A stretch of 37,730 nt of DNA from Sulfuritalea sp. (GCA_020853215.1 JADYZH010000150.1:1-37730), one strand, 5' to 3'. Counted from the first letter of the stretch, positions 2,433 through 33,961 are shown. Numbers and translations: made by a program. Notes: generated by a model not told the origin, from the sequence alone.

Positions 2433-2562
2433 GGTTATATACTCAGATCAGTTTTTGCTATCGTATTGATTGTAGCCGCAACGGAGAATTCACCAAGCAA
2501 TCGGTTCCCGGACACTGCGGCATCGGACCCGAGCAAGGGATCGGCCGCGAGGAGGCAGCGTC

Positions 2563-3822
2563 GTGAGAAACAGTGAAATCGCCCGCAATACCTTCGGCAT
2601 CGTACTCGCCGGCGGCCGCGGCAGCCGCCTGATGCAGCTCACCGACTGGCGCTCCAAGCCCGCCGTGCCCTTTGGCGGCAAGTTCCGCATCGTCGATTTC
2701 ACGCTGTCGAATTGCGTTAACTCCGGCATCCGCCGCATCGGCGTCGCCACCCAGTACAAGGCGCAGAGCCTGATCCAGCACCTGCAGCGCGGCTGGAGCT
2801 TCCTCGACGGCCGCTTCCACGAGTTCATCGACATCCTGCCGGCACAGCAGCAAGTCGGCGAAGACTGGTACCGGGGAACCGCCGACGCGGTGTTCCAGAA
2901 CCTCGACCTGATCCGGCGCAACCGGCCCAAGCACGTGCTGGTGCTTTCCGGCGATCACATCTACAAGATGAACTACGCGCGCATGCTGGCCGAGCATGCC
3001 GAACGCCAGGCGGATTTCAGCGTTGCCTGCATCGATGTCCCGCGGCTCGAGGCCACGGAGTTCGGCGTCATGCACGTCGACGACCGGCAGCGCGTGGCGG
3101 CCTTCGTCGAAAAGCCCAAGGATCCACCGGCGATCCCCGGACACCCGGACCGCGCCCTGGCCAGCATGGGCGTGTATGTCTTCAATGCCGACTTCCTCTA
3201 CGAACAATTGATCCGCGACCACGACGATCCGAAGTCCTCGCACGACTTCGGCAAGGACCTGATCCCGCATTGCGTCGACCGCTACCGGGTGTTCGCCCAC
3301 AACTTCGCCGATTCCTGCGTCGGCATGGACGAGACGCGGATTCCCTACTGGCGCGACGCCGGCACGATCGATGCCTACTGGGAAGCCAACATGGAACTGA
3401 CCAAGGTGACGCCGGAGCTGAACCTCTATGACGACGACTGGCCGATCTGGACCCACCAGGAACAACTGCCGCCTGCCAAGTTCGTCTTCGACGACGACGG
3501 CCGTCGCGGCATGGCGGTCGATTCGCTGGTCTCCGGCGGCGACATCATCAGCGGTGCGCTGGTGCGCCACTCCCTGCTGTTCTCGCGGGTGCACGTGCAC
3601 AGCTACGCCGAGATCGAGGACTCGGTGATCCTGCCCGACGTGCATATCGGTCGCCGCGCCAGGCTGCGCCGGGTGGTGATGGACAAGCATTGCCGCGTCC
3701 CCGACGGCGTGACCATCGGCTATGACATCGAAGCCGACCGCAAGCGCTTCCATGTCAGCGAAAACGGCATTGCCCTGGTGACGCCGGAGATGCTCGGCCA
3801 GCAGGCACATTACATAAGGTGA
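2563..3822 (+). CDS. glgC: Glucose-1-phosphate adenylyltransferase
   Basis: 419 aa, GTG start after [40 protein letters not shown]; divergent from glgB. Confidence 0.97.
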
Positions 3823-3949
3823 ATGCCATGATCGAACTTCCGATCGTGGCACTCACCAAGGTCATCATGGCCCCCCACCCCCGTTCCACGGCCGGCTTTG
3901 CACAGCCGGCCGGCTGCGGCGGCGCAAGGCAGTGCCTTGCGAAACCCCG

Positions 3950-3983
3950 CCTTCGCCCCCCGCCCCTGGGCGGGGGGCGAAGG
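3950..3983. repeat. 16-bp-stem GC-rich palindrome in glgC-GH57 spacer
   Basis: CCTTCGCCCCCCGCCC-CT-GGGCGGGGGGCGAAGG; preceded by GGCCGGCT/AGCCGGCC and CGCAAGGCA/TGCCTTGCG hairpins. Confidence 0.85.
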
Positions 3984-4042
3984 ATGCTCGCTACGCTCGA
4001 AATCTTGAACGATAGCCGCAGCCCTCGGTGCCGCCCCTGATC

Positions 4043-5776
4043 ATGAAACAGCTCGACCTCGTCTTCCTCTGGCACATGCACCAGCCGGACTATCGGGACC
4101 ACGGCGCGACCGGTACGGACGTAAAAGTCGGCGCTGGCGGTACGGCGGCCGGCGAATTCGTCCTGCCCTGGGTGTACCTGCATGCCATGAAGGACTATGT
4201 CGACATGGCGGCGCATCTCGAACGCCATCCGCAGATCCATTGCGTCGTCAATTTCGTCCCGGTACTTCTCGACCAGATCGAGGACTACGCGCAGCAGTTC
4301 GCCGATGGGCAGTTTCGCGACCCACTGCTGCGCATGCTGGCGACACCCGACCTCGAAAGCCTCGGCGTGGCCGACCGGAAGCTGCTGCTGGCGACCTGCT
4401 TCCGCAGCAACCACACCACCATGCTGGCGCCCTTCCCGCAATACAAGCGCCTGCACGAGATCTACCTGCTGCTTGCCAACGACAGCGAAGCGACCTACTG
4501 CTACCTGTCCGGCGCCTACTTCTCCGACCTCATGACCTGGTACCACCTGGCGTGGACCGGCGAGACCGAGCGTCGCCGCAACCCGCTGCTGGCGAAGCTG
4601 ATGAGCCAGGGCGAAGGCTATGACGCCGGGGACCGCCGACAGTTGCTGGACAGCATCGGCGAGCTGATCACCGGCCTGATTCCACGCTGGCGCGCGCTTT
4701 CCGCGCGCGGCCAGGTCGAAATCTCGTCCACGCCCAACACGCATCCGCTGTCGCCGCTGCTGCTCGATTTCAAGGTCGCGCGCGAAAGCCTGCCCGAGGC
4801 GCCGCTGCCCTTCAGCGCCGCCTATCCCGGCGGACGCAGCCGCGTCATCGCCCATATAGATGCCGCGCGCATCAGCCATGCCCGTCGTTTCGGCGCACCA
4901 CCGGTCGGCATGTGGCCGGCGGAAGGTGCCGTCTCCGAAGACTTTGTCAGGCACCTCGCCAACGCCGACTGTCGCTGGATCGCCAGCGGCGAAGGGGTGC
5001 TGAACAACAGCCTTGCCGCGAGCAATATCGACGATCCGCGTGCCGCCTACCATCCCTGGAAGCTGGAGCAGGCCCCCGGTTTGACCCTGTTTTTCCGCGA
5101 CGAGCGCCTCTCGGACCTGATCGGCTTCGACTATGCCAAATGGCACGGCCGCGATGCCGCCAAGCATCTTGTAGGGCAGCTGGAAGCCATCCTCGATGCC
5201 GCAGCCGGCGACGAAAATCCGGTAGTCAGCATCATCCTCGACGGCGAAAACGCCTGGGAGCACTACCCCTACAACGGCTATTACTTCTTCGAGGACCTCT
5301 ACGGCCTGCTCGCCGAGCATCCGCGCATCCGCACCACGACCTACGCCGAACTGCTGGCTCGGCCCGGCCCCCCCGCCGCGACCGTCCTGCCGCACCTGAC
5401 CGCGGGCAGCTGGGTGTATGGCACGCTATCCACCTGGATCGGCGACGAGGCCAAGAACCGGGGCTGGGACCTGCTGTGCGAAGCCAAGCAGAGCTGCGAC
5501 CGGGTGCTGGCCAGCGGCCGCCTCGACAGCGCGCAGGTCAGCGCGGTCAACGTGCAGCTGGCGATCTGCGAAAGTTCCGACTGGTTCTGGTGGTTCGGCG
5601 ACTACAACCCGTCAGCCGCCGTCGCCAGTTTCGACAGCCTCTACCGGCGCAACCTGGCGCGGCTCTATCGCCTGCTACAGCTGGAACCGCCTGCCGCTCT
5701 CGATACTCCCATTTGCGCCGGATCGGCAACCGCCAGCGGCGGCTCGATGCGCCGCGTCACCGTTTCACAATCCTGA
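4043..5776 (+). CDS. Glycoside hydrolase family 57 protein
   Basis: ORF 4028..5776; MKQLDLVFLWHMHQPDYRD, FVLPWVYLHAMKDYVDMAAHLERHP, GMWPAEGAVSEDF, ILDGENAWEHYPYNGYYFF. ATG at 4043 preferred over upstream start. Confidence 0.9.
   Translation: MKQLDLVFLWHMHQPDYRDHGATGTDVKVGAGGTAAGEFVLPWVYLHAMKDYVDMAAHLERHPQIHCVVNFVPVLLDQIEDYAQQFADGQFRDPLLRMLATPDLESLGVADRKLLLATCFRSNHTTMLAPFPQYKRLHEIYLLLANDSEATYCYLSGAYFSDLMTWYHLAWTGETERRRNPLLAKLMSQGEGYDAGDRRQLLDSIGELITGLIPRWRALSARGQVEISSTPNTHPLSPLLLDFKVARESLPEAPLPFSAAYPGGRSRVIAHIDAARISHARRFGAPPVGMWPAEGAVSEDFVRHLANADCRWIASGEGVLNNSLAASNIDDPRAAYHPWKLEQAPGLTLFFRDERLSDLIGFDYAKWHGRDAAKHLVGQLEAILDAAAGDENPVVSIILDGENAWEHYPYNGYYFFEDLYGLLAEHPRIRTTTYAELLARPGPPAATVLPHLTAGSWVYGTLSTWIGDEAKNRGWDLLCEAKQSCDRVLASGRLDSAQVSAVNVQLAICESSDWFWWFGDYNPSAAVASFDSLYRRNLARLYRLLQLEPPAALDTPICAGSATASGGSMRRVTVSQS
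4123..4147 (+). repeat. Dispersed 25-bp repeat, copy A (inside GH57 CDS)
   Basis: AAAAGTCGGCGCTGGCGGTACGGCG, 24/25 to copy G. Confidence 0.85.
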
Positions 5777-5784
5777 CTCCACTT

Positions 5785-7797
5785 ATGCCCATCAGCCTCC
5801 TGTTCGGGGTTCACGCCCACCAGCCCGTCGGCAACTTTCCCGCCGTGATCGACGACGCCCATGTCCGCAGCTACGGCATGTTTCTGCGGGTCATGGAGCG
5901 CTATCCGGAGTTCCGCTTCAGCGTGCATTTTTCCGGCTGGCTGCTCGACGTCCTGTTCGAGCGCTTCCCCGACGACATGGCGCGCCTGGCGGCGATGACC
6001 CGTCGTGGCCAGGTCGAGTGGTTCGGTTCCGGCGATTGCGAGCCCGTGCTGGCGGCGATCCCGCACCGCGACCGCGTCAGCCAGATCGCCACGCTCTCCG
6101 ACAAGATCGAACGCCGCTTCGGCATGCGCCCTTCCGGTGCCTGGCTCACCGAACGGGTCTGGGAGTCCTCGGTAGTGACCTCGCTGGTCGCCACCGGCAT
6201 CCGCTACGTGGCGGTGGACGACTACCATTTCCTCTGCGCCGGCGAAAGCCAGGATCGCCTCGACAGCTTCTTCTCCACCGACGAGGATGGCCGCCGTCTC
6301 GACCTGTTCCCGATCTCCGAGGCCGCGCGCTACCGCCTGCCCTTCTCGCCGGCGGGCGAAGCCGTGGCCTGGCTCGAAGACCTGGCGCGCCAGGGACGGC
6401 GCGCGGCGATCTACTTCGACGACATCGAGAAGTTCGGCATCTGGCCCGAAACCTACGAATGGGTATTCGAGAAAGGCTGGCTGACCCAGTTCGTCGAGGG
6501 CGTACTGGCCTCGCCCCTGATCCGCACCGAGACCTATGCCGAGTACCACGCCCGCGAGCGCACACGCGGCATCGTCTACCTGCCGACCACGTCCTACATC
6601 GAGATGAACGAATGGACGCTGCCGGCGCCGCGCGCGCGCGCGTATCACGCCCTGCTCGAACAGGAAAAGGCCGCCGGCCGCTTCGAGGCGCACAAGCCCT
6701 TCCTGCGCGGGGGCATCTGGCGCAACTTCATGTCGCGCTACCCGGAAGCCAACTGGATGCACAAGCGCATGCTCGGCGCCTCGCGACGCCTTGCCACGCT
6801 GCCGCCCGAGCAGCGCAGCGCGGAGTTGCAGGAGTACCTGCACCGCGCCCAGGCCAACGACGCCTACTGGCACGGCCTCTTCGGCGGCCTCTACCTGCCC
6901 CACCTGCGCCGCGCCATCTGGAACAACCTGTTGAAGCTCGAGGCGGCGCTGGAGCAACTGGCGCCCTGGCCGCGCCAGCAGCAGGGCGACCTCGACCATG
7001 ACGGCCATGTCGAAACCGCATTGCGCAACCCGTTCATCCACGCCTACGTACGCGACGACGGCCACGCTTCCCTGGTGGAATTCTCCAGCCTGGCCGTGGC
7101 GCACAACTTCGGCGACACGCTGCGTGCCTACGAGGAGGCCTACCACGCCAAGATCCACCTGGCGGACGCATGCCATGCGGCGCCGGCGGCAACCGAAGGC
7201 ATCTCCTCGGCCCACGACCGCGTCGCCTTCCTCCATACCATCCTGCCCGGCGATGCCGATCCGGACGAGCGGCCGCGCGGCATTTTCATCGACAGCCTGG
7301 TCGGCCGCAACGACATGCTGCGCCCCATCGCCTTCTACGCGCCCGGCGAGCTCCCCGGCGTGTGGACCGCCGCCGGCGAGGGTTGGCGCATCGGGAAGAC
7401 CTACCGCCTCGACGGCGACACGCTGAACGTCATTTTCCGCGCCGAAGGCGGCGCGCTGCCAAAGTCCATCGAAACCGAGCTGAACCTTGCACTGCCCAGC
7501 TGCGACGGCTATGGCGGGCGTTACGTGCTCGCCGACGGCAGCGTTCCCGGCGGCTTCGGCGAGGCGCTCGAACTCTCCGGCGTGCAACGGATCACGCTCG
7601 ACGACAGCGAACTGCGCGGCGCATTGCTGATCGAGGCCAGCCAGCCGGTGCGGCTCGAGGCACAGCCGCATCGCACCGTCTCCCAGTCCGAGGCCGGCTT
7701 CGAAAAAATCATGCAGGCCGTCTGCATCACGCTGGCCTGGTCGCCCGTGGCCGGCATCGAGCAGCGCATCGCGCTCAGGGTCGTGCCCGCATCGTAG
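5785..7797 (+). CDS. Second GH57 protein, alpha-amylase/4-alpha-glucanotransferase type with C-terminal DUF1926-like region
   Basis: Frame of ORF 4912..7797; start taken as ATG at 5785 (MPISLLFGVHAHQPVGNFPAVIDDAH); WLTERVWESSV, YFDDIEKFGIWPETYEWVFEKGW. Confidence 0.9.
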   Translation: MPISLLFGVHAHQPVGNFPAVIDDAHVRSYGMFLRVMERYPEFRFSVHFSGWLLDVLFERFPDDMARLAAMTRRGQVEWFGSGDCEPVLAAIPHRDRVSQIATLSDKIERRFGMRPSGAWLTERVWESSVVTSLVATGIRYVAVDDYHFLCAGESQDRLDSFFSTDEDGRRLDLFPISEAARYRLPFSPAGEAVAWLEDLARQGRRAAIYFDDIEKFGIWPETYEWVFEKGWLTQFVEGVLASPLIRTETYAEYHARERTRGIVYLPTTSYIEMNEWTLPAPRARAYHALLEQEKAAGRFEAHKPFLRGGIWRNFMSRYPEANWMHKRMLGASRRLATLPPEQRSAELQEYLHRAQANDAYWHGLFGGLYLPHLRRAIWNNLLKLEAALEQLAPWPRQQQGDLDHDGHVETALRNPFIHAYVRDDGHASLVEFSSLAVAHNFGDTLRAYEEAYHAKIHLADACHAAPAATEGISSAHDRVAFLHTILPGDADPDERPRGIFIDSLVGRNDMLRPIAFYAPGELPGVWTAAGEGWRIGKTYRLDGDTLNVIFRAEGGALPKSIETELNLALPSCDGYGGRYVLADGSVPGGFGEALELSGVQRITLDDSELRGALLIEASQPVRLEAQPHRTVSQSEAGFEKIMQAVCITLAWSPVAGIEQRIALRVVPAS

Positions 7798-7822
7798 AAT
7801 GAGGCAAAAGGCGCAGCAATGA

Positions 7823-7890
7823 CGCCCCCTACCCCCCATCCCCCGCCCCGGGGCGGAGGCTACTAATTTGCTCGCGATGCTCGATAATTG
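7823..7890. repeat. C-rich/palindromic intergenic element upstream of glgP
   Basis: CCCCCTACCCCCCATCCCCCGCCCCGGGGCGG (perfect CCGCCCCGGGGCGG at 7843-7856), then TTGCTCGCGATGCTCGATAATTGG. Confidence 0.6.
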
Positions 7891-7927
7891 GTAAGTACAG
7901 CATCCCGATTTCATTACGGTAATCATC

Positions 7928-10495
7928 ATGCCCGGCACCCGCTACAAGCTCGAAGTCAATCCCGAGATCCCGGCGCGCCTGGTGCGCCTCAACGAACTCG
8001 CCAATAACCTCTGGTACAGCTGGGACCGGCCAACGCGCACCCTGTTCGCGCGCCTCGGTCACGGCCTGTGGAAAGCGGTGCACCACAGCCCGAAGGCATT
8101 CCTCAAGCGCATGGACCAGAAGCGGATCAACGAGGCCGCCGACGATCCGGTCTTCCTCGGCACCATGAACCGCGTGCTGTCGGCCTTCGATTCCTATCTG
8201 GCTGAACCCAGGCTGCAGCTGCCAGGCAAGCCGCCGCTGCAGGCGAACGACCTGATCGCCTACTTCTGCGCCGAGTTCGGCTTCCATGAAAGCCTGCCGA
8301 TCTACTCGGGCGGTCTCGGCATCCTCGCCGGCGACCACTGCAAGGGCGCCTCGGATCTGCGCCTGCCTTTCGTTGCCGTGGGACTGCTCTACCGGCAGGG
8401 CTATTTCCACCAGACCATAGACCGCGACGGCAACCAGACCGCACATTACGCCGACAACGATTTCGACGACATGCCGATCGAGGCCGTCCGCGGCGAAGAT
8501 GGCGACGATCTTCGGGTCGGCGTGGCCTTCCCCGGGCGCATGGTGTGGGCCAAGATCTGGCGCGCTCGCGTCGGCAACAACAGCCTGTATCTGCTAGACA
8601 CGCAGCTGGAAGAGAACAGCGAAGCGGATCGCCAGATCGCGCACCAGCTGTACGGCGGCGACCGGCGCACCCGCATCGAGCAGGAAATCCTGCTCGGGAT
8701 CGGCGGCGTGCAGGCGCTCGCCGCGCTGGGGCTGCAGCCGACCGTCTGGCATATTAACGAAGGCCATGCCGCCTTCCTGGTGCTGGAGCGCGTACACGGG
8801 CTGATGGCAAGCCAGGGCATGTCTTTCGCCGCCGCGCTGGAGGCGGTGGCAGCCAACACGGTGTTCACCACGCACACGCCGGTTCCCGCCGGCCACGACC
8901 ACTTCGCCGACGATATGGTCATGCATTACTTCGGCGAAGCCTGCATGGCGGCCGGCGTCGACCGCGACGTTCTGCTTGGCATGGGCCGCGTCGGCGGCGG
9001 GGTCGGCAGCGGCGGCGAATTCAACATGACCGCCCTGGCCCTGCGCGGCTCGCGTTTCCACAACGGCGTCTCGCGCATCCATGGCGAAGTGTCCTCGCGC
9101 ATCTGCGGCGACATGTGGCCGCAGCTCACCGCCGCCGAGAATCCGATGGACTACGTCACCAACGCGGTGCACGTGCCGACCTTCCTCGCCACCGACTGGT
9201 ACGAGACCTTCGACCGCCACCTCGGTCTCGGCTGGCAGCACCGTCTGACCGACCAGAGCTGCTGGGATGGCGTACACCGCATCCCGGACCAGATCTTCTG
9301 GAGCATCCGCCAGTCGCTGAAAGCCCAGTTGCTGCACCTGGTGCACAGCCGGGTACGCCATCAGCACCTGCGCAACCAGGGCTCGGAAGCGCACCTGGAC
9401 CGCGTGCTGCGCAGCGCCGACCCGACCAATCCTACGGTGCTGACCATCGGCTTTGCCCGCCGCTTCGCCACCTACAAGCGCGCCGCACTGCTGTTCAACA
9501 ACCTCGACTGGCTGCGCGAGATCCTTTCCGATGCGCAACGCCCGGTGCTGTTCATCTTTGCCGGCAAGGCGCACCCGGCGGACGAACCCGGGCGACAACT
9601 GATACGCAAGATCGCCGAGCTTTCCCGCCAGCGTGAGTTCGAGGGCCGCATCCTGCTGGTCGAAGGCTACGACCTGCACCTGGCACGACGCATGGTGGCC
9701 GGCGTCGATGTCTGGCTGAACAATCCGATCTATCCGCTGGAAGCCTCGGGCACTTCGGGCATGAAGGCGGCCATCAACGGCGCCATCAACCTGTCGGTGC
9801 TCGACGGCTGGTGGGGCGAGGGCTACAACGGCAAGAACGGCTGGGCGATCAAGCCGGCCGCGGAAGGCCTCGACCCCGCACAGCGCGACATCGACGAAGC
9901 CCGCACCCTGTACGAACTGCTGCAGGACAGCGTGATCCCGATGTACTACCGCAATACTTCCCTCGGCTACTCGCCGGAATGGGTGGCGATGGCCAAGGAA
10001 TCGATCGCTTCGATCATGCCCCGCTTCAACATGCAGCGCATGCTTGTCGACTATGCAGAGAAGTTCTATTCGCCGGCGGCCGAACAGTGGCGCAAGTATT
10101 CCGCCACGGGCTTTTCCGGCGCGCGCGAAGTGGCCGACTGGAAGGCGCGGATCCACGCCGCCTGGCCGCGCATCGGGCTGCGTCGCATCGACAAGTCGGT
10201 GACGCGCATCGGCTACGGCGAGACCATGCTCTTCCAGGTGGCGGTGCAGCTCGATGGCCTGACGCCGGAGGACCTGACCGTGGAAATGGTGTTCACCCGT
10301 CCCGGCGCGCCGACCACGGTCCACGCCCGGCGTTACCAGCTGCAGCACGAGCGCCGGCTGGAAAGCGGCGAGCACCTTTTTTCGCGCGAGCTGACGCCCG
10401 ACCAGTGCGGCAAGATGGAATACCGGTTCCGCGTGTTTCCGACCCATCCGCTGCTGACCCATCCCTTCGAGATGGGCAAGATGCTCTGGTTGTGA
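7928..10495 (+). CDS. glgP: Alpha-glucan (glycogen/maltodextrin) phosphorylase, GT35
   Basis: 855 aa; [91 protein letters not shown]. Confidence 0.95.
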
Positions 10496-10505
10496 GCACG
10501 CCGTC

Positions 10506-12137
10506 ATGAAGCCGGCAACACGCGTCGCCTGGGACGGACTGGCGCGCCACGCGGCGGCGGGTTCCGGCGCCCGTTTGCGCGACCTGTTCGCCGCCGACGC
10601 GCAACGCTTCGCCAGGCTCTCCACCTCATGGAATCACTGGCTGCTCGACTACTCCAAGCAGCGCGTCACGCCGGAAACCATGGACCTGCTGCAGGCGCTC
10701 TGGCAGGTTGCGGATTTGCCGGGCTGGATCGCGCGCATGCGCGCCGGCGAAGCCATCAACCACACGGAAGGCCGCGCCGCGCTGCACATCGCGCTGCGCC
10801 ATCCCGCCGACAAGGGCCCGATCATGCATGCCGGCCAGGACGTGATGCCGGCGGTCCATCACGAACTGGCGAAGATGCAGCGGTTCGTCGCCGGAATCCA
10901 CGGCCGCCACTGGCGCGGCGCCACCGGCGAACCGATCAGCGACATCGTCAACATCGGCATCGGCGGCTCCGACCTCGGCCCGCGCATGGCCACCCAGGCG
11001 CTGATGGCTTTTCGCCACCCCGAGTTGCGCGTGCATTACGTCGCCAACCTCGACGCGGCCGACCTCGCCACGACACTGGCCACGCTGCAGCCGCGCAACA
11101 CCCTGTTCGTCATCGCCAGCAAGACCTTCACCACGCAAGAGACCATGCAGAACGCCGCCTCGGCGCGCGCCTGGCTGGTCGGCGCGCTGGGCGAGGCCGC
11201 GGTCGCCCGGCATTTCGTCGCGGTATCGACCAACCTCGGCGAAGTCGCGCGTTTCGGCATCGACCCGGCCAACGCCTTCGCCTTCTGGGACTGGGTCGGC
11301 GGCCGCTACTCCCTGTGGTCGGCGATCGGCCTGCCGCTGGCGCTGGCGGTCGGCTATGACAACTTCGAAAAGCTGCTGGCCGGGGCGCACGCCATGGACG
11401 AGCATTTCTTCAGCGCGCCGCCGCAGGAGAACCTGCCCGGCCTGCTGGCGCTGCTCGAAATCTGGAACAGCAACTTCCTCGGCGCCGACAACCGGGTGCT
11501 GCTGCCCTACAGCCAGTCGCTGGGCCTCTTGCCGCGCTACCTGCAGCAACTGGAAATGGAATCCAACGGCAAGCCCGTCGACCGCCAGGGCGAGCCCCTC
11601 GACTGCACCACGGCGCCCATCCTCTGGGGCGAGGCCGGCACCAACGGCCAGCACGCCTTCTACCAGCTGATCCACCAGGGTGGGCACCTGATCCCCTGCG
11701 AATTCATCGCCTGCCGTGAAGCGGATTTCGCCCTGCCCGGCCACCACGAAAAGCTGCTGGCCAACTGCTTCGCCCAGGGCGAAGCGCTGATGCGCGGCAA
11801 GACGCCGGACGAGACCTTCACCGAGCTGCGGGCCGGCGGCATGGCGGCCGACGAGGCGGCGCGCCTCGCCCCCTTCCGCAGCTTCCCCGGCAACCAGCCG
11901 TCGACCACGCTGCTGCTGCCGCGCCTCGATCCCTTCAACCTCGGCGCCCTGCTGGCGCTCTACGAACACAAGGTCTTCGCCGAAAGCGTTATCTGGGACA
12001 TCAATCCCTTCGACCAGTGGGGCGTCGAATACGGCAAGCAACTCGCCAGCCGCCTGCTGTCCATCATCGAAGGCAAGGCGTCCGCCGCCGGCCTCGACAG
12101 CTCGACCGCGGGGCTGATCGCCGCTTGCAAGCCATGA
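10506..12137 (+). CDS. pgi: Glucose-6-phosphate isomerase
   Basis: 543 aa; [65 protein letters not shown]. Confidence 0.97.
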
Positions 12138-12145
12138 ACCAATTT

Positions 12146-12285
12146 TCCGCAGATGACACAGATTTTCACAGATTAAAACTCGGCAATTCATCGGGTCGGA
12201 GGCAATCGCCGACAAACCCGATGGATGATGGGCAAGGCACGTCAAGCGTGTTGATCCATCTGCGTAAATCTGCGTAATCTGCGGA
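12146..12285. repeat. Long imperfect inverted repeat with nested hairpin, pgi-glgA intergenic
   Basis: Left arm TCCGCAGATGACACAGATTTTCACAGAT (12146-) pairs with right arm ATCTGCGTAAATCTGCGTAATCTGCGGA (12258-12285), about 24/28; inner CATCGGGT/ACCCGATG at 12189-12223. Confidence 0.8.
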
Positions 12286-12303
12286 TCAAAGGTTTTTTAC
12301 GGA

Positions 12304-13740
12304 ATGAAGATCCTTTTCTCCACGTCGGAGCTCGCGCCCTGGGTCAAGACCGGCGGCCTCGGCGATGTCGCCGGTGCGCTGCCGGCCGCGTTGCGCGCGC
12401 TCGGCCACGACGTGCGCGTGCTGGTGCCGGCCTATCCGGCGCTGTTGCAGGCCTTTCCCGGCGCCGCGGAAATCGCCCGCCCGCACTGGCTCGGCGGCCT
12501 GCTGCCGACGCCCGGCCTGCGCGAAGCCACGGCGCCCGACGGGACACCGCTGCTGTTGCTCGACTACCGCCCCTACTTCGACCGGACCGGCAATCCCTAC
12601 CTCGGCCCCGAAGGCCGCGACTGGCTCGACAACCACCTGCGCTTCGGCCTGCTCTCGCGCGTCGCCGCCTGGATCGGCTCCGAGGCCAGCACCCTGGACT
12701 GGGTGCCCGACGTGATCCACTGCAACGACTGGCAGAGCGCGCTGGCGCCGGCCTATCTCGCCTACGGCGCCGAGCGCCCGGTGAAGTCGCTGGTCACGGT
12801 GCACAACCTGGCCTTCCAGGGGATCTTCGACCACGCCGCGCTGTTCGAACTGGGACTGCCGGATGCGGCCTGGAGCATGCACGGCGTCGAGTACCACGGC
12901 TACCTGTCCTTCCTCAAGGCCGGCCTGCAGCATGCCGATGCGATCAACACGGTGAGCCCGGGCTACGCCCGCGAGATCCAGACCGATGCCGAAGGCATGG
13001 GCATGGCCGGCCTGCTGCGACATCGCGCGGCGGACCTCTCCGGCATCCTCAACGGCATCGACACCCGCGACTGGGACCCGGCGCACGACGGCCACCTGGT
13101 CAAACGCTACGGCTCGCGCCGGCTGGAGGACAAGGCGGCGAACAAGGCCGCGCTGCAGGCCGAGATGGGCCTCGACGTACGCGCCGACCGGCCGCTGCTG
13201 GCGGTGGTGAGTCGCCTTACCGAGCAGAAGGGGCTCGACCTGTTCCTTGAAGTCGCCGCGCGCGTCCTTGACCTGCCGGCACAGATCGCCGTGCTCGGCA
13301 GCGGCGCACACGCACTGGAACATGGCTGGACCGCATTTGCCCGGCGCCACCCGGGGCGCTGCGCGGTCAGGATCGGCTTCGACGAAGGCTTCGCCCACCG
13401 CATCGAAGCCGGCGCCGACATCTTCGTCATGCCCTCGCGCTTCGAGCCCTGCGGCCTCAACCAGATGTACAGCCTGCGCTACGGCACTCCGCCCGTGGTG
13501 CGCGCCACCGGCGGCCTGGCCGACACGGTGGTCGACGCCACCGATGAAAAGCGTGGCAACGGCTTCGTCTTCGGCCCAGCCACCGCGGCAGCCCTATTCG
13601 CCGCCCTGCAGCGCGCCGCCGTGGCCTGGCGCGACCCCACGCTCTGGCGCCGGCTGCAGAAGCACGGCATGGCGCGCGATTCGAGCTGGGCCGAGTCCGC
13701 CGGCCATTACGCCGCGCTCTACGAAAAAATCGCGGGCTGA
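12304..13740 (+). CDS. glgA: Glycogen synthase (ADP-glucose)
   Basis: 478 aa; MKILFSTSELAPWVKTGGLGDVAGALPAAL, HCNDWQSALAPAYL, VTVHNLAFQGIF, MPSRFEPCGLNQMYSLRYGTPPVVRATGGLADTV. Confidence 0.97.
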   Translation: MKILFSTSELAPWVKTGGLGDVAGALPAALRALGHDVRVLVPAYPALLQAFPGAAEIARPHWLGGLLPTPGLREATAPDGTPLLLLDYRPYFDRTGNPYLGPEGRDWLDNHLRFGLLSRVAAWIGSEASTLDWVPDVIHCNDWQSALAPAYLAYGAERPVKSLVTVHNLAFQGIFDHAALFELGLPDAAWSMHGVEYHGYLSFLKAGLQHADAINTVSPGYAREIQTDAEGMGMAGLLRHRAADLSGILNGIDTRDWDPAHDGHLVKRYGSRRLEDKAANKAALQAEMGLDVRADRPLLAVVSRLTEQKGLDLFLEVAARVLDLPAQIAVLGSGAHALEHGWTAFARRHPGRCAVRIGFDEGFAHRIEAGADIFVMPSRFEPCGLNQMYSLRYGTPPVVRATGGLADTVVDATDEKRGNGFVFGPATAAALFAALQRAAVAWRDPTLWRRLQKHGMARDSSWAESAGHYAALYEKIAG

Positions 13741-26679: not shown

Positions 26680-26807
26680 ATAAAGCTGTAATCTTTCCGT
26701 GGCAAACTCCGCTCCCGAGGGGGTTTACCCTGTCAATTCCACCCTACCCGCGCGCTCCCCATGCGTTAAGTTCAGCCATCCGTAACCAACCGTAAGCCGT
26801 CGCCATC

Positions 26808-27062
26808 ATGAGCACTGCCACCTGGAGCGATGAAGCCATCATCGCCAAGATTCGTGAAATCGCCAAGACCACCTTCGGCCTGGATCTGCCGGACAGCGGC
26901 CAGCCCATCAAGGATTCGGGGCTCGATTCGATGGCGTTGATCGACATCGTGATGGGCCTGGAAGAATCCTTCGGTTGCCAGCTGGCGCTGGAACGACTGC
27001 CGGCAAACCCGACGATCAACGACTTCGTGGCCCTGGTGCACGCAAGCCTGGCAGAGCCGTGA
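26808..27062 (+). CDS. Acyl carrier protein (dedicated, rpf-locus linked)
   Basis: 84 aa; IKDSGLDSMALIDIVMGLEESFGCQL, phosphopantetheine-type DSM motif. Confidence 0.88.
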   Translation: MSTATWSDEAIIAKIREIAKTTFGLDLPDSGQPIKDSGLDSMALIDIVMGLEESFGCQLALERLPANPTINDFVALVHASLAEP

Positions 27063-28285
27063 ACGAAGTCGTCATCACCGGCCTGGGCTTCGTTTCGCCC
27101 ATCGGCCAATCTGCCGTCGAAGTACTCGATCACCTGCGCGCGGTCCGCTCCGGCATCAGCCTCTGGTCGGCGAAAGGCTTCACCAAGACTTTCCCGGCCG
27201 GCATCGTCCACGGCGATTTCGACGATCATTTCGAAAAGAAGGATCTGCCCTACCTGGACCGGGTCACGAAAATGAGTGTCGCCGCCGCGGAGCAGGCCCT
27301 GGCCGATGCCGGCCTCCCCCCGGGTCTGGGCGAACCCGGGCCGCGCGCTGGCGTGTTTGCGGGTACCGTCAGCGGCGGCGCCGAAACCCAAACCCAGTGG
27401 CTGCGCGACTTTTCCGCCGGGGACAAGCAAACCGCCCGGCCCTTCACCCTCATGGCCGGCATGCACAACGCCCCGGCCGCCTGGATTTCCATCCGCCACC
27501 GGATCGTCGGCCCCGTGATCACCCATACCTCAGCCTGCTCATCCTCCGGCGCGGCGATCGGCGATGCGCTGCGCTGGATCCGCGCCGGCGATCTCGACCT
27601 GGCGATCGCCGGCGGCTGCGAGGCCACGCTCAATGCACCGGTCATGGGCGCCTGGGACGGCTTGCGGGCGCTGGCCCGTCCCGATGCGGACGACGTCGGG
27701 CGCAGTTGCCGGCCGTTTTCCCGCGACCGGAGCGGGCTGGTGCTAGCCGAGGGCGCCGTGTTCTTCGTTCTGGAATCCGCGGAGCATGCCGCGGCGCGCG
27801 GCGCCCGTATCCATGCGACGCTGTCCGGTTACGGCATCGCCTGCGATGCCCATCATGTCGGCTCCCCGCATTCGCGCGGACAGACCGCTGCCGTCACGGC
27901 CGCCCTGCGCGATGCCGGCCTACAGCCGTCCGAGCTGTCCTACATCAACGCCCATGCCACGGCGACTCCGACCGGCGACCCGGTGGAAGCAGCATCGCTG
28001 CGCGCCGCCCTCGGCGATGCCGCCGATGTCGTCCCCGTCAGCAGCACCAAGGCCCAGCACGGGCACATGCTCGGCGCCGCCAGCGCCATGGAACTGGGGG
28101 TCTGCGTCCTCGCCATGCAGCATGATTTCCTGCCGGCGACGGCCTTTCTCGACGACATCGACCCAGGCTGCCCGCTCCGCCACGTGCCGGTCGTTGCCGA
28201 GCGGGATGTGCAAATTCGCCACACATTGAGCCTGAGTGCCGGTTTTGGCGGTACAAACACCGCCCTGGTGCTCAGCAAGCGGTAA
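27059..28285 (+). CDS. Beta-ketoacyl-ACP synthase, KAS II-like
   Basis: GTG start overlaps ACP stop (GTGA); VVITGLGFVSPIGQ, active Cys in HTSACSSSGAAIGDAL, His motifs INAHATATPTGDPVE and KAQHGHMLGAASAMELG. Confidence 0.92.
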   Translation: MNEVVITGLGFVSPIGQSAVEVLDHLRAVRSGISLWSAKGFTKTFPAGIVHGDFDDHFEKKDLPYLDRVTKMSVAAAEQALADAGLPPGLGEPGPRAGVFAGTVSGGAETQTQWLRDFSAGDKQTARPFTLMAGMHNAPAAWISIRHRIVGPVITHTSACSSSGAAIGDALRWIRAGDLDLAIAGGCEATLNAPVMGAWDGLRALARPDADDVGRSCRPFSRDRSGLVLAEGAVFFVLESAEHAAARGARIHATLSGYGIACDAHHVGSPHSRGQTAAVTAALRDAGLQPSELSYINAHATATPTGDPVEAASLRAALGDAADVVPVSSTKAQHGHMLGAASAMELGVCVLAMQHDFLPATAFLDDIDPGCPLRHVPVVAERDVQIRHTLSLSAGFGGTNTALVLSKR

Positions 28286-28317
28286 CATTCGGCTTTCCAT
28301 TTGTGCTCGGGCATGCC

Positions 28318-29229
28318 ATGGTGAAGACCGCTTCCATCGCGCCGCACGTAGCCCGGGACGACAGTTCGCTGGCGACCCGGCTTGACAATTCGCTCGACAC
28401 CCTCTGGGTTTCCCTGCAGCCCGTGGACGGCCGGCCGCTCAACTTCTCGCCGGAACTGCTGGCCGGGCTGGAACGGCTGCTGGACCGGATCGAAGGGACT
28501 AACTGGCACTGGCAGGAGGACTCGCGCGAGTACCGTCTGCACTATCTGGTGCTGACGTCGAACCATCCGCGCCACTTCGCCCTGGGCGGCGACCTCGCCT
28601 ATTTCCAGTCCTGCATCGAGGGCGGCAACGCCGGCGCGCTGCGCGCCTACTCGATGCGCTGCCTGGAACTGGTCCGGCGCATATACGCCGCGGCGCACGA
28701 GGTCACCACCGTCGCCCTGGTCCAGGGGCGTGCCTTGGGCGGCGGCTTCGAAACGGCATTGAGCGCTACCCACCTGATCGCCGAACGCGGCGCGCAATTT
28801 GGCTTCCCCGAAATCGCCTTCGGCACCTTCCCCTGCACCGGCGGCATGACTCTGCTGGCCAACCGCATCGGGCTGCGCCGCGCCGCCGCGTTCATGCGCA
28901 ACGCGCGCATCCATTCCGCGACGGACCTGCACACCCAGGGCGTGGTGGATGAGCTGTGCGAGCCCGGCGAAGGCCCTGCCGCAGTGCAGCGCTTCATCGC
29001 GGAGCACCGCCGTCGCTACAACGCCCGCATGGCCCTGCAGCGAGCGGAAACGCGCATGGGCAGCTTCGACCTCGCAGAAATGCGCACCGTGGTCGAAGAC
29101 TGGGTGGCGACGGCAATGGCGCTGTCCGCCGAGGAGCGCCGGGTGCTCGATACCCTGGTGCGCATGCAGGCGGCCGATGCCGGCGCCGCCCCGGTCACGC
29201 CACCGATTTTCCTGAAGCGTTCGGCTTAG
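28318..29229 (+). CDS. rpfF: RpfF-like crotonase-fold enzyme, putative DSF-family signal synthase
   Basis: ORF 28303..29229 (GTG) with ATG at 28318; FALGGDLAYFQSCIEGG, VALVQGRALGGGFETALS, GFPEIAFGTFPCTGG, C-terminal EMRTVVEDWVATAMALSAEERRVLDTLVRMQ; overall layout of Xanthomonas RpfF as recalled. Confidence 0.85.
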   Translation: MVKTASIAPHVARDDSSLATRLDNSLDTLWVSLQPVDGRPLNFSPELLAGLERLLDRIEGTNWHWQEDSREYRLHYLVLTSNHPRHFALGGDLAYFQSCIEGGNAGALRAYSMRCLELVRRIYAAAHEVTTVALVQGRALGGGFETALSATHLIAERGAQFGFPEIAFGTFPCTGGMTLLANRIGLRRAAAFMRNARIHSATDLHTQGVVDELCEPGEGPAAVQRFIAEHRRRYNARMALQRAETRMGSFDLAEMRTVVEDWVATAMALSAEERRVLDTLVRMQAADAGAAPVTPPIFLKRSA

Positions 29230-31270
29230 CCGAATTGCGCCAATCGCGCAGCGCCGCAACGCTGTTGGCGCTGACGTCGGAGATCTCCATCGCGAGCTTG
29301 GTCCGCATCGCTTCCAGCGCCGCGATATCCGTCTGCATGATCGAGATCGCGGTGTTCTTGAGGCGAAACGCCCCCATCTGATGCGCGACACCCTTCAGGG
29401 CGTGCGCCAGTTTCTTGACCTCATCCCACTGCGCGTCGCCGAGCGCGTCGAGCAGTCCGGCGGTTGATCGCTCGATGTCGAGGACGGCATGATCGATCAT
29501 TTCCCCGAGGAATTCAGGCCGCTTGCTGATGGCCGCCACCTCCGCCAGTACCTCGGCATCGAGGTAGAGGATGGGTACCGCGCGCAGCCCCGGCGCCGTC
29601 CTGGTCTCGGCAGCAGGTGTCCCTTCCGGGAACGTGTCGGCCAGCACCTCGCGAATCTCTGCCAGCCGTACCGGCTTGCCGATGATCCCGCAGGCATCGG
29701 TGTCGCGCAGGCGCGCCGTGGTATCCGCCGATGTGTCGGCGGTCAGGAAGAATACCGGCGCCGGATCGCGCACGCCGAAATGGTAAACCTGCAGGACCTG
29801 GATGCCGTCCATGTCACCCAGGTTGTAATCGAGGAAGATCACGTCCGGCGCCTGTTCGGGTGTTGCCAGCAAGTCGAGCGCTTCCTGCCCCGAGGCGGCG
29901 ATACTGACGGCATGCCCGTCCTGCTCGAGGATCTCGCGCAGCAGGTGCAGGTTGGTGATATTGTCATCGACGATCAGGATCCGCAGGCGCATTCCGCCCG
30001 CGCGGACGGCGGCCACGGGCGGCTCCAGCGACCGCGCGTCGGCGCGCGGGAAATAGACGTCGAACCAGAAGCGCGAGCCACGCCCAGGCTCGCTCGATAC
30101 ACGAAGCTCGCCGCCCATCAGTTCGACGACATCCTTGCAGATCGACAGGCCGAGGCCGGTGCCGGTGGAGTGACGGGCGGAACCGGTCTCGAGCTGGACG
30201 AAGGGAGTAAAGATTTTTTCCTGGTCGGCCTGGGCGATGCCGATCCCGCTGTCTTCGACGGAGAAGCGCAGGTAGAACCTGCTGGGCGTGGCATCGAGCA
30301 CCATGACCCGGATCACGACCTGGCCTTCCTCGGTAAACTTGACCGCATTGCCGGCCAGGTTGAGCAGGGCGCGGCCCAGGTAGTGCGCATCGGCGATGCT
30401 TGCCGCATCAAGCCGCGGATCGATCAGCACCTGCAGGTCGAGATGCTTCTCGTTGGCCCTGGCGCGTACCGCGGCTTCCACCGTATTCATCAGTTCGCGG
30501 ATGTCGCAAATGCCGGGATTCAGGATCAGCGACTTGGCCTCATGCTTGGCCTGGTCGAGCAGGTCGGCGATGTCGTCCTGCAAGTGCTTGGCCAGGGCCA
30601 TGATGGTGCTTGCCAGCCTGCCTTCGGGCGCGGTCGGCGCCCCCATGTGGATCAGGTCGGCAGCGGAAACGATCCCGCCCAGTGGGGTGCGCAGTTCGTG
30701 CGAGACCTTCGCCAGCATGTCGGACTTGCCCCTGCTCTCGTCTTCGGCGCGTTGGCGCGCCGCGTGCAATTGGTCGAGCAGCAAGCCCACATAGATGGGA
30801 ACGATGATCAAGGGCACGGCAAAGGAAATTGCCCTGACCGGATTCTTCAGCCATTCCGGATGGATGGCGAGAATCAGCGCATATCCGGCCAGCGTAACGA
30901 CCTGGTTGACCGCCATGACGTACTTGTCTCCCGTGCGCAAGCCGTAACCCAAGCCGGAAAACAGTGCGAAGGCGACAACGATGCCGGCGGCGTTCTCCAG
31001 CAAGGGCAGCCAGAAAATCAGGAAAACCGCATCGAGCGCAGCAGTGCAATAGATGGCTGCGGGCCAAAACCGCTCCGGCAACCGCCTCGATGCCACCGAT
31101 GTTGCGGCGATATAGACGAAATAGCAGACGATGGCCCACTCCGCCCAAAGGAGGGCCCTGTCCGCGTAGTAATGAAGCCAGACCAGCACCCCCGTCATGG
31201 GGATGCCGATGAACGCACGCAGCCTGGACTGCTTCACCAGTACAGCTTGAAGTGTCGAAACGTGCCGCAT
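29195..31270 (-). CDS. rpfC: RpfC-like hybrid sensor histidine kinase (TM input, HisKA, HATPase_c, REC, HPT)
   Basis: 691 aa; several N-terminal hydrophobic segments, DMLAKVSHELRTPLGGIVSAADLI, FSVEDSGIGIAQADQEKIFTPFVQ, GTGLGLSICKDVVELMGGEL, REC ILIVDDNITNLHLLREILEQDG/FLDYNLGDMDG, HPT KLAHALKGVAHQMG. Confidence 0.88.
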   Translation of the reverse strand: MRHVSTLQAVLVKQSRLRAFIGIPMTGVLVWLHYYADRALLWAEWAIVCYFVYIAATSVASRRLPERFWPAAIYCTAALDAVFLIFWLPLLENAAGIVVAFALFSGLGYGLRTGDKYVMAVNQVVTLAGYALILAIHPEWLKNPVRAISFAVPLIIVPIYVGLLLDQLHAARQRAEDESRGKSDMLAKVSHELRTPLGGIVSAADLIHMGAPTAPEGRLASTIMALAKHLQDDIADLLDQAKHEAKSLILNPGICDIRELMNTVEAAVRARANEKHLDLQVLIDPRLDAASIADAHYLGRALLNLAGNAVKFTEEGQVVIRVMVLDATPSRFYLRFSVEDSGIGIAQADQEKIFTPFVQLETGSARHSTGTGLGLSICKDVVELMGGELRVSSEPGRGSRFWFDVYFPRADARSLEPPVAAVRAGGMRLRILIVDDNITNLHLLREILEQDGHAVSIAASGQEALDLLATPEQAPDVIFLDYNLGDMDGIQVLQVYHFGVRDPAPVFFLTADTSADTTARLRDTDACGIIGKPVRLAEIREVLADTFPEGTPAAETRTAPGLRAVPILYLDAEVLAEVAAISKRPEFLGEMIDHAVLDIERSTAGLLDALGDAQWDEVKKLAHALKGVAHQMGAFRLKNTAISIMQTDIAALEAMRTKLAMEISDVSANSVAALRDWRNSAKPNASGKSVA

Positions 31271-31578
31271 TAATCAGTATTCCACGATCGGTTCCAGTTT
31301 GCTCATTGCATTTGCAACAGCCTCCCAAGGCTACATCGTAATCGCCCGCCTTGCAGGTACTCGGACGCTACCGGACATGGCGGGATGCCGCAGCCCGCAC
31401 GCAGCTATCATCGCCAGAAACAGCCCGGTTTCATTCGGCAAACAGCGGCCGTTTTCCGCGGAGGGAAAGTGATCTTGCGCGGAGGGCATTGTTACTGACG
31501 CGATGGAGTGCTATTTTGTGGCTTGCACGGTGATGCTCAACCCTGCCGTGCCCGTACTTTGGATCATCAAGGCAGCCC

Positions 31579-32646
31579 ATGCGCCAGAACGTACTCGTAA
31601 TCGACGACCAGACCTCGAACGCCATGCTGATTGCCGAGATTCTCTCCGGCATCTCACTCGACATCGACGTCGTCACCTTTGTCCGGCCGCTGGAAGCCGT
31701 GCGCTACGCGGCAGAAAATCCGCTCGACCTGGTCGTCACCGATTTCAGCATGCCCGAACTCGACGGCCTCGGCATCATCCGTCAGCTGAAGGGCATGGAG
31801 CACCTCTTCGACGTGCCGATCGTCGTGGTTACCGCGCACGAAGGCATGGACGTCCGTTTTGCGGCCCTCGACGCCGGTGCGGCCGACTTCCTGACGCGAC
31901 CGATCAATCAGAGGGAATGCCAGTCGCGCTGTCGCAACCTGCTCAGGATGCGCATGTTCCAGCTGCAGAACAAGCGGCACGCCGAAGTACTCCAACAGCG
32001 CGTTGCCGAGGTAACGGAGGACCTACAGAGTCGCACAATGGAAATGCTGCGGCGTCTGGCCGTGGTCGCCGAGAAACGCGATTCAGAGACTGGACAGCAC
32101 CTGGTGAGAATGGCACGCTACTCGAAGCTGCTGGCGCGCGAAACAGGATTCAACGATGCCGAAGTCCATGTGATCGGTCTGGCGGCGCCGCTCCATGACA
32201 TCGGCAAAATCGGCATCCCCGACGGAATCCTGCTCGCGCCGCGACGCCTGACGGATGGCGAACTGGCCATCATGCGCACGCATCCGGACATCGGCTACGA
32301 GATGCTGCAAGGGTCCACCTCGGAATCGATGAAAATGTCGGCCGACATCGCCCGCCACCACCACGAGTGGTTCAATGGCGGCGGCTACCCCCTGGGTCTG
32401 CGCGGCGAGGAGATTCCGCTGTCGGCACGCATCGTCGCGGTGGCCGACGTCTGGGATGCCCTCCTCACGACCCGCCCGTACAAGAGGCCCTGGCCCGAGG
32501 AAGCCGCCATCGATCATCTTCGTGGCGGTGCCGGAGCCCAATTCGACCCGATGCTGGTGGAGGCCTTCCTGGCCAACCTCGAGAGCCTGCGTTCGATTCG
32601 ACATGAGTCGGACCTGGCGGAGACCGAACCACCGCCAGACCAATGA
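31579..32646 (+). CDS. rpfG: RpfG-like response regulator, REC plus HD-GYP (predicted c-di-GMP phosphodiesterase)
   Basis: 355 aa; VLVIDDQTSNAMLI, LVVTDFSMPELDG, PLHDIGKIGIPDGILL, HHHEWFNGGGYPLGLRGEEIPLSARIVAVADVWDALLTTRPYK. Confidence 0.9.
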   Translation: MRQNVLVIDDQTSNAMLIAEILSGISLDIDVVTFVRPLEAVRYAAENPLDLVVTDFSMPELDGLGIIRQLKGMEHLFDVPIVVVTAHEGMDVRFAALDAGAADFLTRPINQRECQSRCRNLLRMRMFQLQNKRHAEVLQQRVAEVTEDLQSRTMEMLRRLAVVAEKRDSETGQHLVRMARYSKLLARETGFNDAEVHVIGLAAPLHDIGKIGIPDGILLAPRRLTDGELAIMRTHPDIGYEMLQGSTSESMKMSADIARHHHEWFNGGGYPLGLRGEEIPLSARIVAVADVWDALLTTRPYKRPWPEEAAIDHLRGGAGAQFDPMLVEAFLANLESLRSIRHESDLAETEPPPDQ

Positions 32647-32753
32647 CCGGTTCGCAGGCGTCGGCCGAAAAATGGTGCCGGACGAATGCGCAGCCGGTAA
32701 AAGTTCTGTATGCTTGGCGTCGCTTTAGACCTAAAACTACAGGAGTAGCAACC

Positions 32754-32972
32754 ATGGCCCGCAAAAAGAAACTGGACTTTTCGGACATCGCGGATGTGCG
32801 CAAGAAGCAGAACATCAACCAGACCGAATTCTGGACGCGCTTCGGCGTTACCCAGTCGGGCGGATCGCGTTACGAGTCCGGCCGCAATATTCCCAAGCCG
32901 CTGGCGATCCTGCTGTGGCTGCATCGTTCGGGCAAGATTAGCGACAAGGATCTGGCGGAAGCCCGGAAGTAG
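32754..32972 (+). CDS. Small XRE-like helix-turn-helix protein
   Basis: 72 aa from ATG 32754 after an AGGAG; MARKKKLDFSDIADVRKKQNINQTEFWTRFGVTQSGGSRYESGRNIPKPLAILLWLHRSGKISDKDLAEARK. Confidence 0.8.
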   Translation: MARKKKLDFSDIADVRKKQNINQTEFWTRFGVTQSGGSRYESGRNIPKPLAILLWLHRSGKISDKDLAEARK

Positions 32973-33029
32973 GCAGCTGCCGTGCGCGGATTCCCGGCCG
33001 CTCCCCCGGGCAGCGGGCACGAGGCCTGA

Positions 33030-33479
33030 GTGATGATCGAGACCGCACGCGGCACGGTGCATGAGTGGCAGCGCGACCACATGGGCCACATCAACGTGCG
33101 CGCCTACATGGAGTTTTTCGAAGAGGCCTGCTGGCAATTCTATGCCATGCTCGGCATGACGCCGTCCCTGCTGCGCAGCGGTGCCCTGCACCTGGCCGCC
33201 GTGCAGCAGAACATCGGCTACCGCAGGGAACTGTATCCCGGTGACACCGTCGCGGTGCGCACCGGCGTGCTGGAAATGCGCGAGAAGGTGCTGCGCTTCC
33301 GCCACGAATTGTTCAATACCGAAACCGGCGATGTCGCCTCGATTTGCGAGTTCACCGTGGTCTGCCTCGACCCGGCAAGCCGCAAGTCGCAGGCCTTTCC
33401 AACGCAGGTGGCAGCGCGCGCCAGGGAGCTGATTCTGTCTGACACGGCAACCGCCACCAATTCCGCGTCCACACCATGA
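33030..33479 (+). CDS. Hotdog-fold acyl-CoA/acyl-ACP thioesterase (4HBT type)
   Basis: 149 aa; VHEWQRDHMGHINVRAYMEFFEEACWQFYAMLG. Start 30 or 33 ambiguous (MM). Confidence 0.85.
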   Translation: MMIETARGTVHEWQRDHMGHINVRAYMEFFEEACWQFYAMLGMTPSLLRSGALHLAAVQQNIGYRRELYPGDTVAVRTGVLEMREKVLRFRHELFNTETGDVASICEFTVVCLDPASRKSQAFPTQVAARARELILSDTATATNSASTP

Positions 33480-33961
33480 GGAAGCACGCGGCGGCGACAG
33501 TGATCGAGTTCGAGCCGGAGTACGTCGGCGGCCTCAAGAACATCTTTGAGGAAATGATCGTCTTCAACCAGCTCCTCGGCCTCAAGGTCACCTCGATCGG
33601 GCCGGACCGCGCCAGCGGCCGCATCGAAATGCGGCGGGAACTGATCGGGCACTACAGCCACAACCGGATCCACGGCGGCGTCATCAGTGCCAGCCTCGAC
33701 GCGATGGGCGGGCTGGCGGTGATGGCGGCGATTGGTGCGCGCCACATGGACGAGACGCCGGCGCAACGCCTGCACCGCTTTGGCAAGCTGGGCACCATCG
33801 ATCTGCGCATCGACTACCTGCGCCCCGGCATCGGCGACCGCTTCGAACTGCGCGCGGAAGTCCTGCGCCTCGGCTCGCGCGTCGCCACCACCCGCATGGA
33901 ATTCCTCGGTGCGGACGGCAAGCTGCTGTCCGCCGGCGCGGGGACCTACATCGTTTCCTGA
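33476..33961 (+). CDS. Hotdog-fold thioesterase (PaaI-like)
   Basis: 161 aa; RIEMRRELIGHYSHNRIHGGVISASLDAMGGLAVMAAIG, DLRIDYLRPG; overlaps previous gene by 4 nt. Confidence 0.85.
   Translation: MRKHAAATVIEFEPEYVGGLKNIFEEMIVFNQLLGLKVTSIGPDRASGRIEMRRELIGHYSHNRIHGGVISASLDAMGGLAVMAAIGARHMDETPAQRLHRFGKLGTIDLRIDYLRPGIGDRFELRAEVLRLGSRVATTRMEFLGADGKLLSAGAGTYIVS

Follow-up and report, generated by a model that had tools for sequence, protein, structure and literature searches.

A Putative DSF-Family Signalling Locus with a Dedicated Acyl Carrier Protein and Ketosynthase in Sulfuritalea sp.

Introduction

Must a DSF-family signal be drawn off the common pool of fatty acids, as the usual view of these signals has it, or can it be built on a precursor line of its own? 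The question is raised by a locus of Sulfuritalea sp. in which an rpfF-like gene is accompanied by genes for an acyl carrier protein (ACP) and a β-ketoacyl-ACP synthase (KAS). The locus lies within a stretch of 37,730 nucleotides (GCA_020853215.1 JADYZH010000150.1:1-37730), the whole of which was analyzed and is referred to here as the window.

Xanthomonas RpfF uses 3-hydroxyacyl-ACP and possesses both dehydratase and thioesterase activity (PMC4542539). Experiments in which RpfF was swapped point to the supply of substrate as what sets the type of signal (PMC4504480). No description of an ACP or KAS in an rpf locus was found in the open-access literature (subscription papers and supplementary files were outside the scope of the search), nor was any biochemistry, expression work, or signal assay found there for a member of the subfamily described below. 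The ACP/KAS variant of the DSF/Rpf system is real and conserved and, as far as the open-access literature searched is concerned, undescribed. We hold it fairly probable that the locus represents a self-contained DSF-family signalling variant with a dedicated precursor supply, although the structure of the signal is inferred, and chemical, transcriptional, and signalling data are lacking. This reading is based on gene content, intact catalytic residues, co-inheritance, subfamily-specific pocket residues, and the classic rpf position occupied in gammaproteobacterial relatives.

Organization of the Locus

The module consists of five core genes, all of them intact by ORF listing and Pfam scan. The first (26808..27062, plus strand) encodes a private ACP of 84 aa that passes the PF00550 model at 42.2 bits (cut-off of 20.8) and carries the phosphopantetheine serine within a GLDSM attachment site. 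It is followed on the same strand by a FabF-like KAS of 408 aa with a GTG start (27059..28285; PF00109/PF02801), which belongs to a separate clade, and by an RpfF-like DSF synthase of the crotonase type (28318..29229; 303 aa from its ATG, with an alternative GTG start at 28303), assigned through NF006452, the 3m6m structure, and its place in the RpfF clade. An RpfC-like hybrid histidine kinase of 691 aa is encoded on the minus strand (29195..31270), with Pfam HisKA, HATPase, REC, and HPt domains and an N-terminal membrane input, and a 355-aa RpfG-like response regulator with REC and HD-GYP domains (Pfam PF00072 and PF13487) lies on the plus strand (31579..32646).

These ORF calls bear out the gene order and strands given in an initial annotation of the window, as well as its GTGA overlap between ACP and KAS (4 nt, from the KAS start at 27059 to the ACP end at 27062) and its placement of the rpfF start shortly 3′ of the KAS stop, at a distance of 17 nt for the GTG or 32 nt for the ATG. 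The motifs it listed as intact, namely the ACP serine, the Cys/His/His set of the KAS, the two RpfF glutamates, the kinase relay, and HD-GYP, are likewise present, together with the KAS lysine. Missing from that annotation was a tail-to-tail overlap of 35 nt between rpfF and rpfC, and overlapping 3′ ends of the two genes also occur in 18 of 23 measurable relatives. The KAS-rpfF gaps among relatives are mostly short, ranging from a slight overlap to <100 nt, and such spacing would be compatible with co-transcription, for which there are no transcript data. Promoter and terminator scans gave no signal above chance.

Conservation and Co-Inheritance of the Module

The ACP-KAS-rpfF neighborhood first noted in this single sequence proved to be conserved. 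When an RpfF alignment was used to scan 84,980 species genomes, with loci picked by RpfF sequence only, 30 further loci were recovered in Beta- and Gammaproteobacteria with RpfF identities of 43–87%, followed by a gap and by next matches of ≤39%. A KAS and an RpfC-like kinase were present in all 30 loci, and 26 of these also have an ACP. Of the four loci without one, two are cut by contig ends, and the other two (L068 and L070) have no recognizable ACP. The KAS of L093 is found on the far side of rpfG-rpfC, and the ACPs of L072, L074, and L082 are found beyond rpfC. No KAS stood beside rpfF in about 53 other RpfF loci, most of which were read for only 1.5 kb on each side.

First searches at the family and order levels had found three relatives with the same gene set (RpfF identity of 44–47%), the KAS of one being cut by a contig end, along with many RpfFs of <40% identity without it. 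Within the family, a KAS at E<=1e-100 was found in three of 399 genomes, all with a subfamily RpfF, and the one further subfamily genome had a contig-cut KAS. A class-wide sample of 369 genomes contained no more KAS proteins of the private clade, which is therefore rare, and plasmid records held only more distant RpfFs (best, 39%).

Adjacent acpP and fabF genes are common in housekeeping fab clusters, and the same genome possesses such a pair on contig C196, consisting of a separate housekeeping ACP (AcpP), from which the private ACP is distinct, and a FabF fragment. It is on these grounds that the ACP and KAS might be taken for chance neighbors of rpfF or for a stray acpP-fabF copy unrelated to it. 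This is scarcely credible and is already refuted by conservation of the linkage, as the KAS is present in every subfamily locus against none of the other rpfF genes sampled, and it falls outside the FabF/FabB clades of the host.

The RpfF and KAS trees proposed in the initial annotation, to which an RpfC tree can be added, contain matching clades: the KAS-linked RpfFs form a single clade with moderate support (91/81), as do the KAS proteins (100/99) and the RpfC homologues of the module (100/100). Moreover, the distance matrices of the three proteins correlate with one another (Spearman 0.65–0.79; 0 of 2000 permutations as high), a result to which species ancestry contributes. The variant RpfF is the sole RpfF in 15 of 18 genomes, with one of the remainder having two copies of it and two having an extra canonical RpfF. 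As separate observations, L071 and L092 each contain two KAS-RpfF copies of the subfamily in one locus, which suggests duplicated signal lines, and in Lysobacter sp. CFH 32150 (L072:3700-13450) a canonical rpfG-rpfC-rpfF set directly adjoins the ACP/KAS variant.

RpfF and Its Acyl Pocket

Among solved structures, the closest relative of the window RpfF is Xanthomonas RpfF (3m6m; E=3.7e-38). The protein has a Pfam ECH_1 domain, passes the broader NCBI model NF006452 (PRK08788; 249.9 bits, cut-off of 177), and fails the narrow RpfF equivalog NF053515 (147.7 vs. a cut-off of 550 bits). In a maximum-likelihood tree of 91 rows that included five ordinary enoyl-CoA hydratases and the RpfF of Xanthomonas campestris pv. 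campestris (Xcc), a 100/100 split placed it with the RpfFs, Xcc RpfF among them, rather than with the hydratases, in keeping with the identity it had initially been given.

The catalytic residues Glu145 and Glu165 (Xcc E141/E161) are invariant in all 33 subfamily members, and the glycine-rich oxyanion loop (LGGG motif) is intact. The pocket beside the catalytic Glu161 (Xcc numbering here and below) has been rewritten: Gly169 is replaced by Cys in 32/33 members, Tyr173 by Met in 32/33, and Met170 in all 33, by Thr, Ser, or Asn in 32 and by Gly in one. The window RpfF has Cys-Thr for Gly169-Met170 (Cys173-Thr174 in its own numbering). Other RpfFs retain Gly, Met, and Tyr at these positions in 49/51, 49/51, and 42/51 cases, respectively, and Trp258 is unchanged in the subfamily. 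Met170 and Trp258 have been named in a review as possible precursor contacts (PMC9864630). The scan patterns held part of the Cys-Thr motif, so the uniformity of the pocket is partly a matter of ascertainment; three relatives found without any motif also carry the rewritten residues. These changes in the pocket fit a variant signal.

The Private KAS and ACP

The window KAS scores below the cut-off of the FabF equivalog (TIGR03150; 359.2 vs. 493.75 bits). Like FabF (KAS II), it belongs to the same family and has the Cys/His/His/Lys active site, these residues being invariant in 31/31 copies. Unlike FabF, the private KAS has Ala for Gly in the first His motif (NAHATAT for NAHGTST), His for Thr in the second (STKxxHGH), Ala, Ser, or Cys for the Phe before GFGG in the SFGFGG loop, and Arg, Gly, Ala, or Ser where the chain-length-limiting Ile of FabF (Ile108 of the E. 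coli enzyme) aligns. As placed by its tree, in which its clade stands apart from FabF and FabB, the private KAS is neither of the two. A recent origin by copying of the host FabF was ruled out by its position outside the host clades. In the cluster ACPs, the DS motif is retained in all 27 (the window and 26 relatives), making phosphopantetheinylation plausible, as a prediction without modification data.

It is conceivable that an ordinary DSF-family signal is still drawn from the housekeeping pool and that the ACP and KAS only raise flux or regulate supply without affecting structure. Xanthomonas DSF is made with housekeeping fatty-acid synthesis enzymes and a contribution from the auxiliary FabG2 (PMC4542539, PMC5941067), both RpfF glutamates are unchanged, and two loci have no ACP. 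We nevertheless regard this explanation as unlikely: the KAS forms a deep clade of its own in which residues near the active site have changed, the RpfF pocket has been altered in parallel with it, and nothing would require an enzyme pair that merely raises flux to be so strictly co-inherited with RpfF and RpfC. The reading of a dedicated supply line is preferred. Since ACP, KAS, RpfF, and RpfC are inherited as a set and the RpfF pocket has been remodelled, the chain length or branching of the signal is probably not that of Xanthomonas DSF, an inference made in the absence of product chemistry. The suggestion in the initial annotation of a possible DSF-family variant is thus supported by the distinct KAS clade and the rewritten pocket, with chain length, branching, and the cis-2-enoic nature of the product all inferred.

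RpfC, RpfG, and Signal Outputs

Hydropathy points to an N-terminal membrane input in the RpfC-like kinase, and the relay motifs are intact. Aligned with the canonical RpfC-like kinase of L072, it shows 31% identity across 557 aa, a stretch that takes in the final portion of the input domain. The window RpfG is 46–50% identical to the RpfGs in the clusters of three relatives and has the motifs LHDIGK, HPDIG, and HHEWFNGGGYP.

In some relatives, the core is accompanied by other output regulators. Beside the core of L080 (6973-8022) and L090 (13321-14364) is a response regulator with a class III nucleotide cyclase domain in place of HD-GYP, and one that resembles these by eye occurs beside the core of L083 (6999-8042); a change of second messenger is possible in the three loci. 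A REC-PAS-GGDEF-EAL protein is encoded beside the ACP of a Herbaspirillum-labelled cluster (L082:14178-16355).

Chromosomal Setting

In several relatives from the Rhodanobacteraceae and Lysobacterales, the module adjoins recJ-prfB-lysS, and its other side (e.g., in L094) holds rpfG followed by rpfC and by genes for a PilZ protein, an acyl-CoA ligase, and an aconitase. This is the setting of the Xanthomonas rpf locus, in which rpfA is an aconitase gene and rpfB an acyl-CoA ligase gene. Judged by its neighbors, the module of the Rhodanobacteraceae and Lysobacter relatives occupies the classic rpf site. The initial annotation had pointed out that rpfF adjoins rpfB in Xanthomonas. The lack of rpfB beside rpfF holds for the window but fails as a general mark of the variant, as an acyl-CoA ligase gene lies nearby in the gammaproteobacterial members.

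This position has a bearing on whether the product is a DSF at all. The module could make another acyl product, such as a specialized lipid or an RpfF enoyl chain extended by the KAS, in which case RpfF would supply a dehydration step and RpfC/RpfG would act as regulator or sensor, and the rewritten pocket beside Glu161 and the marks that set the KAS apart from FabF (NAHATAT, STKxxHGH, and the changed chain-length site) would suit such a role. However, the conserved core is without any ketoreductase, acyltransferase, export, or tailoring gene, the module sits at the rpf locus in relatives, and it always comes with an RpfC-like sensor, all of which make such a product quite improbable in our estimation.

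In the window itself, the module lies between acyP and a run of one HTH and two hotdog proteins (32754-33961; Pfam RsaL-like HTH_92 and two 4HBT). The latter had been counted as part of the locus. The genus-mate G517 has acyP and HTH-TE1-TE2, separated by ~5 kb of unrelated genes, but no rpf genes, so HTH_92 and the two thioesterases are chromosomal neighbors outside the module; distant module loci are also without them. The slot (26680-32750 in the window) is variable in the genus, and in G517 it holds other genes, which by their sequence resemble mla transport genes and one for a CHASE2-type adenylate cyclase. Contamination of the contig is unlikely, since both the bioF-apbC-metG-acyP order and HTH-TE1-TE2 are common to G517. 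The module is absent from about 20 genus-mates that were sampled and is therefore accessory in the genus. Elsewhere in the window (267-13740), a glycogen-metabolism-like run was noted from the ORF list only, comprising a branching enzyme, ADP-glucose pyrophosphorylase, GH57-like proteins, phosphorylase, and glycogen synthase.

Proposed Mechanism and Comparison with Known Systems

In the proposed pathway, the private ACP would be charged with malonyl or acyl groups, which the private KAS would condense to a 3-oxoacyl chain on that carrier. No ketoreductase is encoded in the locus, and reduction to 3-hydroxyacyl-ACP would fall to the housekeeping FabG. RpfF would then dehydrate this substrate to a cis-2-enoyl thioester and hydrolyze it, freeing a cis-2-unsaturated fatty acid, a reaction established for the Xanthomonas enzyme (PMC4542539). 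The RpfC-like kinase would sense the acid, and its phosphorelay would control the HD-GYP regulator and lower c-di-GMP.

The Xanthomonas rpf cluster (rpfB-rpfF/rpfC-rpfH-rpfG) resembles the module in its crotonase RpfF with both glutamates, convergent rpfC, and HD-GYP RpfG, and its position by prfB-lysS, together with genes for an acyl-CoA ligase and an aconitase, is shared by gammaproteobacterial relatives. The module differs in its private ACP and KAS, in the separate clades of RpfF, KAS, and RpfC, in Cys-Thr-Met for Gly169-Met170-Tyr173, and, in the window, in an rpfF without adjoining rpfB. In rpf-1/rpf-2 of Stenotrophomonas, too, RpfF and RpfC vary as a pair, and horizontal exchange has been proposed (PMC4517397), but there the variation concerns the N-termini of both proteins and is not known to include an ACP/KAS pair. 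Xanthomonas FabG2 is likewise a fatty-acid enzyme that is encoded away from the main fab cluster and contributes to DSF precursors (PMC5941067), but it is a reductase (XCC0416) and not an rpfF-linked KAS/ACP pair.

Implications for DSF-Family Signalling

Recurrence of the same arrangement in 30 other genome records means that some bacteria may use a dedicated precursor line and not the membrane-lipid pool. More tentatively, and with somewhat less than even confidence, a proteobacterial branch may possess a DSF-family signal with a distinct structure. A dedicated ACP/ketosynthase/RpfF line, kept apart from the synthesis of membrane lipids, would fix that structure, and a cognate clade of RpfC would read the signal, with exchangeable outputs (HD-GYP, REC-nucleotide cyclase, or REC-GGDEF-EAL) beside the same core.

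Which signal a species makes is reportedly determined by the supply of substrate and not by RpfF. If the reading favored here is true, evolution would have fixed that supply inside the signalling locus in the form of a conserved, co-inherited ACP/KAS/RpfF/RpfC unit, and the private KAS would control the very supply that signal type follows in known systems (PMC4504480). A small KAS gene would then offer a simple genetic handle on how the chain length and branching of a signal are set, and cultured genera, Dokdonella and Lysobacter among them, would be predicted to have signal variants.
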